Shown in pieces: positions 30,150 through 38,093 of a stretch of 43,060 nucleotides of DNA. A model generated the notes under the pieces. It saw nothing but the letters and a program-made list of their open reading frames with translations. It did no database searches and was not told the origin of the DNA. Every line of letters begins with the position of its first letter. Positions within the stretch are counted from its first letter, which is position 1. The DNA comes from a virus: IMG/VR virus record IMGVR_UViG_3300010885_008144, positions 1-43,060 of that record. One strand, written 5' to 3'. The translations under genes were made by a program, and so were the position numbers.

Positions 30150-30702
30150 CCGACCGTCCGTAGTCCGCAAGGAACCACGAATCGACCACATCGGACAGCG
30201 GACTGCCGCAGTTGCCGACATCCATGAGGCTTGCCAAGTCCACTCCCGTCTTCTCCTTATGGGCGGCGATCATGGCGCATTTGTCGGCATTTCCCTTGCC
30301 TGTGGCGTGTTTCTTGAGGGCGGTGGGCGATACTAGCGTGAAGCCCAACCCGTGTTGCCACAACTTGTGCTTGAGCAAGCCGCAGTTCTCACCGAGATGG
30401 AACACCCTTCCCTTGGCTCCCATCGCATAGTCTTCGATGAATATGCGGTCGGCACCGATGCAGAAGGGGACAGCCCACGATGCGAGTGAGTTGAACCGTC
30501 CCTCGGGACTCTGATACTCGGGTAGCCGATGACCGTGCCAACTGAATCCCGTCACCCCGCCAACGCCTTCCCCCTTCTTGGTGGGGCTGACATAGTGGCT
30601 CACGGTTTCCCACCCGCCGTCGAGCATGATGGTCAGGGCAGGGCAGGTCATGCTGTAGTCGATGCCGACGATCTTCACGGGGATATCTAGCGGAGCAACC
30701 AT
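30130..30702 (-). CDS. RuvC-like Holliday-junction resolvase / RNase H-fold nuclease
   Basis: The ATG at 30702 gives 190 aa. The frame is open upstream, but that part is antisense to uvsY. The RNase H-fold acidic series is visible: VKIVGIDYSMTCPALTI (first Asp, residue about 12), RIFIEDYAMGAKGRVF (Glu, residue about 85), and a C-terminal SPLSDVVDSWFLADYG (paired Asp). A TALKKHATGKGNADK motif before it is typical of RuvC-like phage enzymes. It may resolve recombination intermediates in place of T4 endonuclease VII (gp49), which is not seen here. No SD precedes its ATG, and that ATG overlaps the divergent uvsY ATG. Confidence 0.75.
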   Translation of the reverse strand: MVAPLDIPVKIVGIDYSMTCPALTIMLDGGWETVSHYVSPTKKGEGVGGVTGFSWHGHRLPEYQSPEGRFNSLASWAVPFCIGADRIFIEDYAMGAKGRVFHLGENCGLLKHKLWQHGLGFTLVSPTALKKHATGKGNADKCAMIAAHKEKTGVDLASLMDVGNCGSPLSDVVDSWFLADYGRSVTKTAP

Positions 30703-31138
30703 GAACATCGACACGATCAAGCAGATGGTGGAGACGGAACTCAAGATCGACGGCACCGAACTCGGTGACGAGAGCCTCCGCATCCCCGTGCTGCACGGCA
30801 AGTTCCTCAACATCTTCCACGACGAGTCGCTCATCCTCCGCAAGTTGGATGCCGACTACCGCATCCTGCGCAAGCGGAAGTGGGAGTGGTACAACGGCAA
30901 GATGTCCCAACAGGAACTCAGCGATGCGGGATGGGAGCCGTTCGCCACCCGCATCCTCCGTCAGGACATGGATGTCTACATGGAAGCCGATCCCGACCTG
31001 ACGAAGGCGATGCAGAGGATCGACCTACAGAGGGCGAAGGTCGAGTACCTCGACTCGGTCATCAAGCAGATCAACAACCGCAATTGGGTGATCCGCAACG
31101 CCATCGAATGGCGCAAGTTTATGAGCGGCGTGTCATAA
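30701..31138 (+). CDS. uvsY: Recombination mediator UvsY
   Basis: The start at 30701 is set by GGAG seven bases upstream. The product is 145 aa (T4: 137). The UvsY pattern is clear: MNIDTIKQMVETELKIDGTE, SLRIPVLHGKFLNIFHDESL, a region RKWEWYNGKMSQQEL, and the C-terminal KQINNRNWVIRNAIEWRKFM. UvsY is the mediator that loads UvsX recombinase onto gp32-coated ssDNA; UvsX is outside this window. It is followed by uvsW, so the pair forms a recombination operon as in T4. Confidence 0.92.
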   Translation: MNIDTIKQMVETELKIDGTELGDESLRIPVLHGKFLNIFHDESLILRKLDADYRILRKRKWEWYNGKMSQQELSDAGWEPFATRILRQDMDVYMEADPDLTKAMQRIDLQRAKVEYLDSVIKQINNRNWVIRNAIEWRKFMSGVS

Positions 31139-31148
31139 GTACCCTGCC

Positions 31149-32678
31149 ATGCCGTCGATTGAAGTCCGCACCATGAACTCGGCAAACCTCCGTGTCATCA
31201 CGGAGAACGCCGTGGCGCACGAGTTGCAGGACTACTTCACATTCGAGGTGCCTGGTGCGAAGTTCACGCCCGCCTACAGGCGCAGGGTGTGGGACGGCAA
31301 GATCAGGCTGTTCAACGCCTACTCGGGTCTGCTTCCCGCAGGACTGCTCGACTACCTCGCCACCTTCTCCCGTGACCGTGGCTACGAGATGCAGGTCGAT
31401 TCCGCCGTGGCGCAGCCCGAGATCAAGCACGACTGCGAGAAGGTCAAGGGCATGATCGAAGCCCTCAAGCCGACCTCCGATGGCAAGCCCCTGTCGCCGC
31501 ACGACCATCAGGTCGATGCCGTCTGCCATGCCCTGAACCACTCACGGTGCGTCCTGCTCTCGCCCACCGCTTCGGGCAAGAGCCTCATCATCTACAGCCT
31601 GTGTCGGTACTACCAACAGGTCATCGCCCCCACCCGCAAGATACTGATAGTCGTCCCGACCATCTCGCTCGTGGCGCAGATGTACGGCGACTTCAGGGAT
31701 TACTCGTCCGAGGTCAAGTGGGATGCCGATGCGAACTGCCACAGGATCGTCGGGGGCGAGGCGAAACTCACCGACAAGCAGATCGTGATCTCCACATGGC
31801 AGTCGATCTACAAGATGCCTAGGGCGTGGTTCGACAACTTCGAGGTGGTCATCGGTGACGAGGCGCACCTGTTCAAGGCGCAGAGCCTCAACGGGATTAT
31901 GAACAAGTTGGTGGACTGCCCCTACCGCATCGCCCTCACGGGAACCCTCGACGGCAGCAAGATTCACAAGTTGGCGATTGAGGGTCTGTTCGGTCCCGTC
32001 CACAAGGTCATCTCGACCAAGGAATTGATGGACAGGAACCTCCTCACCAACCTGCGGATTGAGTGCATCATGCTCCGATATCCCCCCGAGGTTCGGAAGA
32101 GCGTGTGCGGGTTGGACTACCAACATGAGATCGAATGGCTCGTGGGCTGCGAGAAGCGCAACGAGTTCATCGCCTACCTCGCCAAGGCGACCCGAGGCAA
32201 CACGCTCGTCCTGTTCAACTTCGTGGAGAAGCACGGCAAGCCCCTGCATGACCTGATCGCCAAGGTCTGCGGAGACGAACGCAAGGTCTACTTCGTGGCG
32301 GGCGAGACGGAACTTGAGGAGCGTGAGGGCATCCGTGCCATCGTGGAGAAGGAGGAGAACGCCATCATCGTGGCGAGTTACGGGACATTCTCCACGGGCA
32401 TCAACATCAAGTCCCTGCGGAATGTCGTGTTCGCCTCCCCGAGCAAGTCGAGGATCAGGGTGCTACAGAGCATCGGTCGGCAGTTGAGGAAGAGCCAAGG
32501 CAAGCACATCGCCAAACTGTACGACCTAGCCGACGACCTCCATGACGGCGAGAACCTCAACTACACCCTCAAGCATTTCCTCAAGCGTGTGCGCATCTAC
32601 GAAGCCGAGGAGTTCCGATACAACTTGGTCAAGATGCCGCTCGACATGAGGATCGAACGCCCAAGGAGCGGTGCTTGA
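31149..32678 (+). CDS. uvsW: Recombination helicase UvsW
   Basis: The 509-aa protein (T4: about 500) has a superfamily-2 helicase core. Walker A is SPTASGKS (residues 138-145); motif Ia is VVPTISLVAQM; motif II is IGDEAH (236-241), followed by ALTGTLDG (III). The C-terminal half includes VLFNFVEKHGKPL (IV), YGTFSTGINIKSL (V) and QSIGRQLRKSQG (VI). The N-terminal 90 residues include TPAYRRRVWDGKIRLFN, the double-stranded-DNA-binding domain. UvsW unwinds R-loops and branched DNA, which shuts down origin-dependent initiation in favour of recombination-dependent replication. Its stop overlaps the next TTG start. Confidence 0.94.
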   Translation: MPSIEVRTMNSANLRVITENAVAHELQDYFTFEVPGAKFTPAYRRRVWDGKIRLFNAYSGLLPAGLLDYLATFSRDRGYEMQVDSAVAQPEIKHDCEKVKGMIEALKPTSDGKPLSPHDHQVDAVCHALNHSRCVLLSPTASGKSLIIYSLCRYYQQVIAPTRKILIVVPTISLVAQMYGDFRDYSSEVKWDADANCHRIVGGEAKLTDKQIVISTWQSIYKMPRAWFDNFEVVIGDEAHLFKAQSLNGIMNKLVDCPYRIALTGTLDGSKIHKLAIEGLFGPVHKVISTKELMDRNLLTNLRIECIMLRYPPEVRKSVCGLDYQHEIEWLVGCEKRNEFIAYLAKATRGNTLVLFNFVEKHGKPLHDLIAKVCGDERKVYFVAGETELEEREGIRAIVEKEENAIIVASYGTFSTGINIKSLRNVVFASPSKSRIRVLQSIGRQLRKSQGKHIAKLYDLADDLHDGENLNYTLKHFLKRVRIYEAEEFRYNLVKMPLDMRIERPRSGA

Positions 32679-33136
32679 CGCAGTTCTACCCGATCAGGTT
32701 GGTGCGGCTTGTGACGGGCGAGACTCTCGTCACGGGCATCGGGGAGAGTGGCAAGAACAACTATGTCCTAGAACGACCCATGCTGCTCGTCACGATGGCT
32801 GTGGAAGGCGAAGGTGGCGAGGAGTCTCCCCAACAGGTGAGCGTTGCCATGAAGGATTGGATCGACTTCACGGGCGACGACTACATCATGGTGCGCAAGG
32901 ACATCGTGGTGTGCATCGTGAAGCCCGTGAAGGGGATCGTCTCCGACTACATGCAAGCGAAGATGACCTCGGACATCATGGACGACATGATGGAGCGGAA
33001 CAACCGACCGATGACGGTCGATGACCTTGCCCGTGAGGAAGAAGAGGGAGGCGTAGCCGATTCCCCTGCAAGGGATGACGACGAACCCCGTCCCGACGAA
33101 TTCCCTGGGTGGGGTGGCAGTCCCGACTTGAGTTGA
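32675..33136 (+). CDS. Sm-like fold protein, T4-superfamily hypothetical (153 aa)
   Basis: A TTG start overlaps the uvsW stop (TTGA) and has AAGGAG six bases upstream. The core (about residues 5-95: YPIRLVRLVTGETLVTGIGE, YVLERPMLLVTM, then AMKDWIDFTGDDYIMVRKDI, VVCIVKPVKGI) has the spacing of an Sm/LSm-like beta barrel, as seen in small proteins of cyanophage-type phages. The C-terminal 50 residues are acidic and Pro-rich. A related protein lies at 35876. An RNA-binding role is suggested by fold only. Confidence 0.75.
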   Translation: MTQFYPIRLVRLVTGETLVTGIGESGKNNYVLERPMLLVTMAVEGEGGEESPQQVSVAMKDWIDFTGDDYIMVRKDIVVCIVKPVKGIVSDYMQAKMTSDIMDDMMERNNRPMTVDDLAREEEEGGVADSPARDDDEPRPDEFPGWGGSPDLS

Positions 33137-33158: not shown

Positions 33159-33201
33159 GGGAAAAATACGGGATCGTGCGATATCGCCTCCCGATTTTCC
33201 C
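33159..33201 (+). terminator. Large hairpin after the Sm-like gene
   Basis: GGGAAAA and CGGGA (33159-33173) pair with TCCCG and TTTTCCC (33189-33201), with small bulges. Between the arms is the perfect palindrome GCGATATCGC (33178-33187). It sits 22 bases after the stop at 33136 and directly precedes the AT-rich island. It probably ends the uvsY-uvsW-Sm transcript; the embedded palindrome could also serve as a protein-binding site. Confidence 0.55.
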
Positions 33202-33203
33202 CA

Positions 33204-33489
33204 CTAGTACTTCTAGGTTTTATCAGTACTTGGTACTCTAGGTTACTAGGACTAGATATCCTAGTTCTACTTCTAGTAGGTACTTCAAGAGGTTATCTCA
33301 AGAGTACTTCTAGAAGGTACTTCAGGAAGACTTCTTCTAGTACCTAGAACCAAGTACCTAGTAACCTAGTTCCTGTTACCTAGTACTTACTAGTCAACAT
33401 CTAGAGGTACTCTTTAGGTACTTTCTAGAGACTTTTTGGAAGATTCCTAGAAGTCCTAGTTGTGTTCTAGAAGTCCTAGAAGTATTTAG
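33204..33489. repeat. CTAG/GTAC-saturated AT-rich intergenic island
   Basis: The 480-base gap between 33136 and the gp55 start holds no gene. Positions 33204-33478 carry 20 CTAG and 11 GTAC tetramers in about 275 bases, in recurring words such as AGTACTTCTAG, AGGTACTTC, CCTAGTAAC and TTCTAGAAGTCCTAG (twice). An 11-base inverted repeat (AGGTTACTAGG at 33240-33250 and its complement at 33357-33367) spans about 106 bases. GC content is far below the rest. There is no exact long direct repeat, so it is neither a CRISPR array nor a tandem array. Possible roles are a replication origin, recombination or packaging site, structured RNA or protein-binding array. Confidence 0.8.
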
Positions 33490-33497
33490 TAGGGGGA

Positions 33498-33514
33498 AAA
33501 GATAAACTATCTTT
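33498..33514. promoter_or_regulatory. Hairpin AAAGATA-AAC-TATCTTT upstream of gp55
   Basis: A perfect 7-bp AT-rich stem around an AAC loop follows the CTAG island and lies about 100 bases before the gp55 start. It may be part of the same regulatory or origin region. The remaining 33515-33616 shows no gene; a GGAAAGGG SD precedes gp55. Confidence 0.45.
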
Positions 33515-33616
33515 GATTCTACGGATTTCGGAGAAAAAGGTAAGTTTTCTTATCGGATGTCCACACCATGCCGTTCCTTGCTGCCGATAACTGTTGTAGA
33601 AACGGGAAAGGGCTAC

Positions 33617-34186
33617 ATGGCAGCGAAGGGACAAGGCACACACTACATCGACAACGAACGCTTCCTCAAGGAACTGATCGCCCATCGCAAGGCGATTGCA
33701 AAGGCGAAGAAGGCGGGGAAGAAGCCACCTGGTGTCAACAACTACATCGGGCAATGCTTCCTCGACATCGCCAACAACCTCGCCAAGAAGCCGAACTTCG
33801 CCAACTACACCTACAAGGAGGAGATGGTCTGCGACAGCGTGGAGAACTGCATCATGTATGCGGGCAACTTCGACCCACGCAAGTCACGCAACCCGTTCGC
33901 CTTCTTCACTCAGATCATCTACTACGCCTTCCTCCGCCGCATACAGAGGGAGAAGAAGCAACTCTATGTCAAGATGAAGTGCTTCGAGCAGAACGACCCC
34001 ACGGGCAGGTTCCGCAATTGGATGGAGGACAAGCACTTGCAGTACGGCGAGGGAGAACAGAGTCCGTTCGCTGACTTCATCACGGGCGAAATCTCCGCAG
34101 AGTCGCTGAAGCCGAAGAAGAAGCGTCGAAAGAGGAAGGTGCAGAAGGACACCAAGGGGCTTGACGATGTCATGGAGGACTTGTGA
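33617..34186 (+). CDS. 55: Late sigma factor gp55
   Basis: The ATG at 33617 has GGAAAGGG just upstream and gives 189 aa (T4: 185); an ATG 20 codons earlier lacks a good site. The gp55 pattern is clear: GTHYIDNERFLKELIAHRKA, then VNNYIGQCFLDIANNLAKKP and ENCIMYAGNFDPRKSRNPFA, FFTQIIYYAFLRRIQREKKQ. gp55 directs RNA polymerase to late promoters of the TATAAATA type, and candidate elements are found across this window. The C-terminus is Lys/Arg-rich and ends LDDVMEDL, similar to the clamp-binding tail of T4 gp55. Its stop overlaps the gp47 GTG start. Confidence 0.93.
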   Translation: MAAKGQGTHYIDNERFLKELIAHRKAIAKAKKAGKKPPGVNNYIGQCFLDIANNLAKKPNFANYTYKEEMVCDSVENCIMYAGNFDPRKSRNPFAFFTQIIYYAFLRRIQREKKQLYVKMKCFEQNDPTGRFRNWMEDKHLQYGEGEQSPFADFITGEISAESLKPKKKRRKRKVQKDTKGLDDVMEDL

Positions 34187-35232
34187 TCGCCATCCTGAAC
34201 GACACCCACTTCGGGGCTAGGAACGACAGCCCGATCTTCCTCGACCACTTCCTCGACTTCTTCGAGAAGGATTTCTTCCCCTACCTCACGGCGCACGGGA
34301 TCAGGCACATCGTCCATCTAGGCGACTTCCTAGACAGGCGCAAGTTCGTCAACTTCCACACCCTCAATCAGGTGAGGACGAGGTTCCTAGACCCCCTGCG
34401 GGACATGGGTGTCCACATGGACATCACCTTGGGCAACCACGATGTGTTCTTCAAGAACACCAACCGACTCAACTCGGTCGTGGAACTGTTCAGCATGTAC
34501 CCCAACATCTCCGTCCACGAGGCTCCCACCGTCCTGTACCTCGACAAGCGACCCATCGGACTCGTCCCGTGGATCACCAAGGACAACGCCGACGAGTGCC
34601 TCAAGTTCATGCAGACCGCCCCCGTGGATGTCCTCATGGGTCACTTCGAGATCAACGGCTACGAGGTGCTGCGTGGGGTCGAGTACCATGAGGGGATGGA
34701 TGCCCGTGTCCTGTCGAGGTTCAAGGCGGTGTACAGCGGTCACTTCCATTGCCGCCACAGCAAGGGCAACATCCACTACCTCGGGACGCAGTATCAGATG
34801 ACCTTCACCGACCTAGGGGAGCGCAAGGGGTTCCATGTGTTCGACCCCGACACGGCGGCGATGGAGTTCGTGGAGAACCCCCGTGCGATCTTCCATGAGA
34901 TCGTGTACGACGACAGGACGAACGACTACGCCATCCACAACTGCAAGCCGTATGTCCATTCGTTCGTGCGGATGCGGGTGGAGGCGAAGACCCGACCGAT
35001 CATGTTCGACAACCTCCTCGACAGGCTCAACGAAGCCCCCGTCCACTCGGTCACCATCGTGGACGAATCCGATAACCTCAACTCCACGGCGGGGATCACG
35101 GCGGCTGCGGACATCTCCAAGGACACCCTCACCCTGATCTGCGACGATATCGACTGTATGGATGGTGTCGTTGATCCCGTCAGGCTGAAGACGCTTGTGC
35201 GAGAAATCTACGCCGAATCCGTGCAAGGTTGA
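34183..35232 (+). CDS. 47: Recombination nuclease subunit gp47 (Mre11/SbcD-like)
   Basis: A GTG start overlaps the gp55 stop (GTGA). The 349-aa protein (T4: 339) has the metallophosphoesterase motifs: NDTHFGARND (residues 6-15), VHLGDFLDRRK, TLGNHDVFF, a MGHFEINGYE and YSGHFHCRHSKG. These bind two manganese ions. With gp46 it resects double-strand breaks to start recombination-dependent replication. Here gp46 is encoded about 1 kb away on the opposite strand rather than next to gp47 as in T4. Confidence 0.94.
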   Translation: MIAILNDTHFGARNDSPIFLDHFLDFFEKDFFPYLTAHGIRHIVHLGDFLDRRKFVNFHTLNQVRTRFLDPLRDMGVHMDITLGNHDVFFKNTNRLNSVVELFSMYPNISVHEAPTVLYLDKRPIGLVPWITKDNADECLKFMQTAPVDVLMGHFEINGYEVLRGVEYHEGMDARVLSRFKAVYSGHFHCRHSKGNIHYLGTQYQMTFTDLGERKGFHVFDPDTAAMEFVENPRAIFHEIVYDDRTNDYAIHNCKPYVHSFVRMRVEAKTRPIMFDNLLDRLNEAPVHSVTIVDESDNLNSTAGITAAADISKDTLTLICDDIDCMDGVVDPVRLKTLVREIYAESVQG

Positions 35233-35645: not shown

Positions 35646-35852
35646 ATGGTCAAGTCGTTCATGGAGTGGTCTACCGCTGTCGCCCGTGGGGGTGGCGGTC
35701 ATGTCACCTCGACCCTAGACATCTCCAACGGCAAGTCCGCCCTCGCCAAGCGACCATCGTGGAGGGATGCCCGCAACCTGTCCCCTTCCCGCAAGAAGAT
35801 TGCGAAGGAAAGGGAGAAGACTCCCTATTGGAGTGCGGGTGGCATCACCTAG
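35646..35852 (+). CDS. Small basic protein with possible leaderless late mRNA (68 aa)
   Basis: MVKSFMEWSTAVARGGGGHV... is a short basic protein with a glycine run near residue 16 and a Lys/Arg-rich segment near the end (RKKIAKEREK). No family is recognised. The ATG has no SD; the late promoter element is five bases away, so it is a good candidate for leaderless translation. Expression from a late promoter suggests a structural or maturation role. It follows the lipoprotein gene by 16 bases. Confidence 0.65.
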   Translation: MVKSFMEWSTAVARGGGGHVTSTLDISNGKSALAKRPSWRDARNLSPSRKKIAKEREKTPYWSAGGIT

Positions 35853-35875
35853 ATACGGGTGAGGTACTCCATACC

Positions 35876-36202
35876 ATGAGCAAGATTCATCTGTTCCGCC
35901 TGAACTCGGGCGAGGAAATCATCGCTGAGTGCGACATGGCGAAGCATGCCCAAGACGAGCATGGCTTCCGTGCATACGAGGTCAAGAACCCGATCATCAT
36001 GCTGCCGATGGGTCAGGGGGAGATCGGGCTTGCCCCGTGGCTCCCGTACTGCGAGGCATCGACCCTGTTGATCCCGACCTCGTCGGTGCTGTTCACGGCG
36101 GTTCCGAAGAAGAACCTGTCGGACAAGTACACCACCGCCGTGTCGGGCATCGTCGTCCCCGAGGCATCGGTGTCCAAGGGACTCCGACTCATCTCGGAGT
36201 GA
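35876..36202 (+). CDS. Second Sm-like protein (108 aa)
   Basis: The ATG at 35876 has GAGG about 13 bases upstream. The protein MSKIHLFRLNSGEEIIAECD, then AYEVKNPIIMLPMGQGEIGL, APWLPYCEASTLLIPTSSVL, matches the same small Sm-like beta-barrel style as the gene at 32675 (G-E near residue 12, a K/R-P-x-x-L/M strand, a W/D strand, a final hydrophobic strand). Conserved small proteins of this kind are common in marine T4-like phages. Function unknown; RNA binding is an inference. The stop lies three bases from the convergent gp46 stop. Confidence 0.78.
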   Translation: MSKIHLFRLNSGEEIIAECDMAKHAQDEHGFRAYEVKNPIIMLPMGQGEIGLAPWLPYCEASTLLIPTSSVLFTAVPKKNLSDKYTTAVSGIVVPEASVSKGLRLISE

Positions 36203-38086: not shown

Positions 38087-38093
38087 TATTTAG
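38087..38093 (-). promoter_or_regulatory. Late promoter element CTAAATA for the 40-aa membrane gene
   Basis: CTAAATACGGGC lies 24 bases before the ATG at 38062, with an AAAGGAG SD between. This is the one late element here with a conventional leader and SD. Confidence 0.65.

Follow-up and report, generated by a model that had tools for sequence, protein, structure and literature searches.

The T4 origin oriF (ori uvsY) is an R-loop origin with a MotA-dependent middle promoter upstream of uvsY. The T4 late promoter consists of a TATA box of 8 bp placed about one helical turn ahead of the transcription start, and variant boxes are found in T4 relatives (PMC2988020). Among the RNAs described from T4-like cyanophages, manA and wcaG are structured elements that lie in the 5' UTRs of metabolic genes and have conserved folds catalogued in Rfam (PMC2864571), and CfrI is an antisense RNA of ~225 nt in cyanophage S-PM2 (PMC2984593). 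Phage antisense RNAs such as CfrI are the closest described things to the locus reported here, and our literature search found nothing useful on CTAG islands or CTAAATA late promoters. The locus lies in the window, the whole stretch that we analysed, which is a 43,060-base piece of one T4-like phage record. It is an island packed with CTAG and GTAC, and on balance we lean toward reading it as the body of a leftward, structured noncoding transcription unit served by a late promoter; we infer its transcription, RNA ends and function from sequence. The features around the island are as follows.

30662-31138, plus strand: uvsY recombination mediator (PHROG 231, E = 5e-43)
31149-32678, plus strand: uvsW helicase (PHROG 16 helicase, E = 2e-107; tblastn match to cyanophage UvsW)
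32675-33136, plus strand: gene for an Sm/LSm-like protein (DUF6561; profile and structure match to PDB 3by7), convergent to the predicted RNA
33159-33202, no strand assigned: terminator-like hairpin GGGAAAAATACGGGATCGTGCGATATCGCCTCCCGATTTTCCCC with T tracts in both directions (read directly and by folding)
33204-33489, no strand assigned: CTAG/GTAC island as first reported (tetramer counts)
33203-33477, minus strand: body of the predicted leftward noncoding transcript (fold z-scores and nested arms; putative ends)
33465-33481, minus strand: inverted repeat TTCTAG-GACTT-CTAGAA, centred near the predicted start at ~33477
33482-33489, minus strand (reads 33489-33482): putative leftward T4-type late promoter box CTAAATAC (motif shared with minus-strand genes)
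33497-33519, minus strand: conserved stretch ahead of the leftward promoter, GAATCAAAGATAGTTTATCTTTT (comparison with relatives)
33557-34186, plus strand: gp55 late sigma factor (PHROG 234, E = 1e-56)
34183-35232, plus strand: gp47, SbcD-like (PHROG 100, E = 4e-91)

The gene order is thus uvsY, uvsW, the small Sm-like gene, the island, gp55 and gp47, with gp46 and ribonucleotide reductase beyond, in agreement with the initial annotation, in which the island had the uvsW operon on one side and the late sigma gene on the other. Comparison with relatives suggests that the true gp55 start is probably at 33618 (MAAKGQGTHYIDNERF).

The island (286 bases) holds 20 CTAG, the first at 33204 and the last at 33476, and 11 GTAC, exactly the numbers counted initially, out of 83 CTAG and 152 GTAC in the whole window. 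The density of CTAG is 69.9/kb in the island versus 1.47/kb elsewhere (48-fold, Poisson P ~1e-26; ~50-fold in the initial estimate), and that of GTAC is 38.5/kb versus 3.3/kb (12-fold, P ~6e-9); within the window, only the island is packed in this way. In 5000 dinucleotide-preserving shuffles of the island, the two tetramers together reach a mean of 10.8 and a maximum of 22 versus 31 observed, so composition alone cannot account for the enrichment. The words AGTACT, TCTAGA and CTAG are scattered among inverted arms, with irregular CTAG spacing and no regular repeat unit, and the island is therefore neither a tandem nor a CRISPR array, as had been noted. The 11-base inverted repeat reported at first turned out to be an understatement: a perfect 13-nt inverted pair is present (33238-33250 and 33357-33369), long arms nest over the whole island, and one pair ties its two ends together (33203-33217 and 33446-33460). 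Each reading frame on both strands contains 5-16 stops, which indicates that the island is noncoding and rules out an origin from a degraded gene.

One initial claim did not survive. The genome had been said to avoid CTAG, below chance; in the rest of the window, 63 CTAG are observed versus 59.6 expected from dinucleotides, and we have dropped a CTAG-specific avoidance. CTAG is scarce there without being depleted because TA itself is rare in the rest of the genome. It is evident, however, that many restriction palindromes are avoided simultaneously across the window (1-43060): AGCT, ACGT, CCGG, CGCG and TTAA are completely missing (106, 192, 278, 315 and 32 expected, respectively), and GGCC occurs 3 times versus 198 expected. 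AGCT and ACGT are also missing or nearly so in nearly all of the related contigs tabulated, with L074 as the exception.

A search of IMG/VR with gp55 returned dozens of related contigs, and the alignment of homologous gaps that the initial annotation had called for could be carried out. The homologous gaps in the relatives carry counterparts, i.e., shorter or longer elements (about 40 to 300 nt) with related words such as AGTACT, CTTAAG, CTAG, TCTAGA and CTATAG. Because these come from independent contigs, an assembly artefact is excluded, and so is an island private to the window. Seven related contigs were also checked for psbA as a pointer to the host, and the gene is absent from them. In the 168-kb genome G001, the source of contig L020, the homologous gap is the longest noncoding gap, and nowhere else is the genome as dense in CTAG or GTAC. 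The TA flanks are symmetric: 26 pooled elements contain 72 CTAG and 85 GTAC versus 7 CTAC and 12 GTAG, where ~40 of each are expected. Between the window and L005, identity is 92% in gp55, 80% in the Sm gene and 66% in the island, with 68 gapped columns in the latter; judged from this alignment, the island is evolving fast relative to its flanking genes.

The vocabulary of the element differs among relatives. In L043, L047 and L048, the genome flank contains 0 CTAG (13-22 expected) and the element likewise 0 CTAG and no GTAC, with TATA-type words instead. GTAC is missing from flank and element alike in L030, as is TTAA in the window, L005 and L012. Position, promoter and self-complementarity are kept in these relatives. 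By this comparison, the CTAG vocabulary is dispensable, and the words of an element track the palindromes tolerated by the genome that hosts it. We propose that the words are CTAG and GTAC because an AT-rich self-complementary rod would be limited to the palindromes that a restriction-avoiding genome tolerates. The retention of the element without CTAG in L043, L047 and L048 argues against a protein that reads CTAG, and the sink for a CTAG-binding protein suggested initially is contradicted by these relatives. A functionless expansion of palindromes, selfish or mutational, might have arisen at an intergenic site that tolerates it, through slippage at hairpins or through template switching, and could produce the rapid divergence, the changes in length from about 40 to 300 nt and the capacity of any copy to pair with any other. 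We consider it highly improbable, since place, promoter, dyad and self-complementarity are conserved across many lineages and forbidden palindromes are swapped for tolerated ones.

The gp55-side edge of the island is the minus-strand box CTAAATAC. Its CTAAATA core also lies 10-35 nt before the window's minus-strand genes at 38093, 20193 and 8270. In G001, 24 of the 40 CTAAATA sites are located just upstream of large ORFs, whereas reversed controls are not. Of the features of a T4-type late promoter, a TATAAATA-like box upstream of genes of the same genome (here CTAAATA) and a gp55 encoded by the phage are both present. By this placement, CTAAATA is the late promoter of the window's phage clade. 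Relatives have CTAGATA, CTACATA, CTAAATA or TATAAATA at the same edge and on the same strand, and the segment upstream (33497-33519 in the window), which reads GAATCAAAGGCAATTTAC in relatives, takes the same relative position in L005 and L011-L031. A leftward promoter signature is present in 72 of 87 distinct Sm-gp55 gaps, 38 of them late-type and the other 34 sigma70-type. The late-type box occurs on the minus strand in 38 of these gaps versus 5 on the plus strand, but the degenerate pattern, being short and AT-rich, turns up by chance in ~20/87 gaps in mononucleotide shuffles; the sigma70 part (at least 10/12 on the minus strand in 39 gaps in all versus 4.7 expected in shuffles) is thus the stronger half of the promoter argument.

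All 11 cyanophage isolates examined (L285-L294 and L085) carry an almost perfect host-type sigma70 promoter on the minus strand, with 11-12 of 12 matches, TTGACA-17 nt-TAGAAT or TATAAT. A scan of 100 kb of cyanophage S-M1 gave zero 12/12 sigma70 matches and one 11/12 match on the minus strand, and the sigma70 promoter in the gap is thus exceptional. The initial annotation knew of no described counterpart of the island. This stands as far as the literature search and Rfam go, where no family scored above its gathering score for the element, but homologous leftward promoters do exist in sequenced cyanophage isolates, and the leftward unit apparently belongs to a wider, undescribed set at this locus in cyanophage-type T4 relatives. 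In the window, the promoter is aimed into a noncoding region and the island beyond it has no ORF, both as looked for in a phage antisense or noncoding RNA. We are more confident of the leftward promoter itself than of the transcript.

An inverted repeat directly follows the promoter box, constant in position and covarying in sequence across phages. A perfect stem of at least 4 pairs is found in 43 of 84 sequences versus 7.4 expected, in 27 distinct stem sequences. The arms include CTCTTGA/TCAAGAG, TCCTTG/CAAGGA, CCTTTG/CAAAGG and, in the window, TTCTAG/CTAGAA, as well as TCCCC/GGGGA, CAACTG/CAGTTG, CTGG/CCAG and others in further relatives. The position of this dyad is fixed relative to the leftward boxes, sigma70 and late type alike, and among the 48 sigma70-type gaps, 47 have TGT within the first 12 nt. 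The usual promoter-start spacing would put the start within the dyad loop, so that the dyad might act as RNA or as DNA, and a start 5-6 nt past the box would leave half of the dyad outside the RNA, which counts against a leftward RNA. The dyad also follows one other strong promoter in S-M1 and is thus not unique to the locus: at L297:43003 (record position 143003), another perfect sigma70 promoter with the same dyad, AACCTTGTGAGGGGTT, precedes a small ORF and then a long gap that runs up to tRNA-Val. It may mark a second noncoding unit. In L108, L111, L112, L113 and L118, the predicted transcribed start after the late box, CCGGTGTCCGGTATGAAATGAAAGGTTC, is strongly conserved, and in three of them it is followed by another small hairpin, which shows a compensatory change.

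In several of the cyanophage isolates, the leftward sigma70 promoter and the gp55 promoter overlap face to face, with the -35 boxes inside each other's spacers, so that polymerase could sit on only one at a time. Such an arrangement would suit a switch, and with the repetition of words (AGTACT, for example, occurs 40 times versus 9 expected) it invites the explanation that the words are an operator, bound by a protein that controls the divergent leftward and gp55 promoters, or that they titrate a CTAG-binding factor. However, the words change freely between relatives in step with the tolerated palindromes, three elements lack both tetramers, and the dyad at +1 comes in 27 different sequences, all of which make an operator quite improbable.

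The island folds with z of about -4 on either strand (for the body, -3.6 versus dinucleotide shuffles and -2.4 versus 8-nt block shuffles). Most elements of relatives fold with z of -1 to -4, and that of L047, which has no CTAG, with z of -7.1 versus shuffles; 8-nt block permutation usually worsens the fold. In alignments of relatives, RNAalifold gives weak consensus folds and weak covariation inside the block on both strands, which suggests that self-complementarity is kept and not one fixed structure. This disfavours a single conserved fold of the block and counts against a leftward RNA, as it is the vocabulary that is retained, more than any fixed pairing. The GU/AC wobble asymmetry shows no minus-strand preference in the window group and favours the promoter-bearing strand in L006, L008 and L012; the former, and the slightly better plus-strand folds of several elements, are further points against a leftward RNA.

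At the far end of the block, the hairpin at 33159-33202 has folding energies of -22.7 kcal/mol on the minus and -22.3 kcal/mol on the plus strand and is terminator-like only, since strict terminator scans did not flag it; we propose it as the shared 3' end of the plus-strand operon and the minus-strand RNA. Across relatives, minus-strand intrinsic terminators are found in 9 of 72 versus 6 in shuffles, and this absence of enrichment also counts against a leftward RNA. The L006/L008/L012 group is turned round: its CTAAAT late promoter sits at the left end on the plus strand, which is also the better-folding strand, and a strict poly-T terminator is located ~232 nt downstream, at the opposite end, in L006, L008 and L009, though not in L012. 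The strongest sign that promoter, block and terminator belong together as one unit is this mirror-image layout. In S-M1 (L293), a strong intrinsic terminator, GACCAACTTTGTTGGTCTTTTTTT, lies ~117 nt after the leftward promoter, within the Sm-like coding region on the opposite strand.

Some of these data would also fit a plus-strand RNA, in which the block, as a structured 3' UTR or an insulator, would terminate the late uvsY-uvsW-Sm mRNA, protect it and stop transcription from running into gp55, the leftward promoter being a separate feature next to it. In most relatives the block comes right after the stop codon of the Sm gene, several elements have slightly better folds on the plus than on the minus strand (-103.5 versus -97.7 in the window; -31.0 versus -23.5 in L018), and the hairpin is terminator-like in both directions. 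We nevertheless regard a plus-strand 3' UTR as unlikely, because the dyad is fixed relative to the leftward boxes, promoter and terminator are reversed in orientation in the L006 group, and many elements (L032, L015, L028 and L047) fold better on the minus strand.

A further explanation is a DNA element, i.e., a replication origin or recombination hotspot whose palindromes extrude as hairpins and are unwound or cut by UvsW and gp46/47; here the leftward RNA could prime replication from an R-loop, as happens at T4 origins. The palindromes are symmetric between the strands, the sequence is TA-rich and easily melted, there is one copy per genome, and the site adjoins uvsY, uvsW and gp47, the T4 origin and recombination genes. 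Two observations nevertheless speak against it, and we judge a DNA element unlikely: there is no GC-skew turn at the site in G001 (168 kb), although T4-like genomes need not show such a turn at an origin, and most cyanophages keep the promoter without the palindromic block.

The leftward noncoding RNA is suggested by the leftward promoter in 72 of 87 gaps and CTAAATA being the clade's late promoter; by the covarying dyad, better-than-shuffle folds in most relatives and the terminator-like hairpin at the far end; and by words that follow tolerated palindromes, the adjacent Sm/LSm fold and fast evolution. Of the options listed in the initial annotation, a structured RNA is thus the best supported. 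RNA polymerase with gp55 would start near 33477 from the late promoter at 33489-33482, and the palindromic block would be copied into an RNA of ~275-320 nt, folded as a long and imperfect rod that carries a small dyad at its 5' end. The transcript would stop at the hairpin 33202-33159, where it meets the uvsY-uvsW-Sm-like operon tail to tail. At the locus, the RNA may regulate the convergent uvsW/Sm-like mRNA, either as an antisense RNA or at its 3' end, and may also be a ligand of the adjacent Sm-like protein.

The product of 32675-33136 matches PDB 3by7 by profile (E = 3e-13). In its AlphaFold2 model (mean pLDDT 75, core above 90), the protein has the Sm fold, a five-stranded bent barrel. 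The best Foldseek match of the model is 3by7 (TM(target) 0.92), whose title calls it similar to Sm/LSm-like RNA-binding proteins; spliceosomal Sm and LSm proteins come next. The family is DUF6561, frequently annotated as 'methylamine utilization', and the protein has an acidic tail and a C-terminal DEFPGWGG motif. In the clade, the protein ends (33060-33136 in the window) in an acidic tail and a conserved peptide, DEFPGWGGDPRL, which recall the tails through which SSB proteins interact. Beyond gp47, at 35666-36202, lies a second, diverged DUF6561/Sm-like gene that probably starts inside the listed ORF. The convergence of a predicted noncoding RNA unit with a gene for an RNA-binding protein is suggestive of a partnership between the two. 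More tentatively, T4-like phages from marine and freshwater habitats may share an undescribed leftward RNA gene, driven early by a host-type sigma70 promoter in some lineages and late by gp55 promoters in others, with an Sm-ring partner and a body that has grown in the window's clade into a rod of tolerated palindromes. If real, the leftward RNA would be a candidate RNA partner for a widespread orphan Sm-like protein of cyanophage-type T4 relatives, an added regulator at the switch to late transcription and a clear case of restriction avoidance dictating the words of a noncoding element. A direct test is possible in cultured cyanophages, given the sigma70 form of the promoter in 11/11 isolates examined.

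Compared with known systems, the predicted leftward unit resembles CfrI in that it would be a noncoding antisense RNA of a T4-like phage with similar length. It differs in position, between the Sm-like gene and gp55, whereas CfrI lies at psbA and a homing-endonuclease gene, and in being palindrome-rich with a late promoter. As in T4 late promoters, a TATA-type box precedes a predicted start in a gp55-encoding genome; however, the box is CTAAATA here and CTAGATA or CTACATA in relatives, and it points away from gp55 into noncoding DNA. Like manA and wcaG, the unit would be a structured RNA of a T4-like phage, but unlike them it has no matching Rfam family. The adjacent gene shares family and fold with 3by7, a Sm/LSm-like protein of uncultured marine/phage origin that is not known to have an RNA partner; the predicted leftward RNA would hint at one. 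The locus shares with T4 oriF the uvsY/uvsW neighbourhood and a promoter that would fire into a special sequence; unlike oriF, its promoter is of the late type and lies downstream of uvsW.
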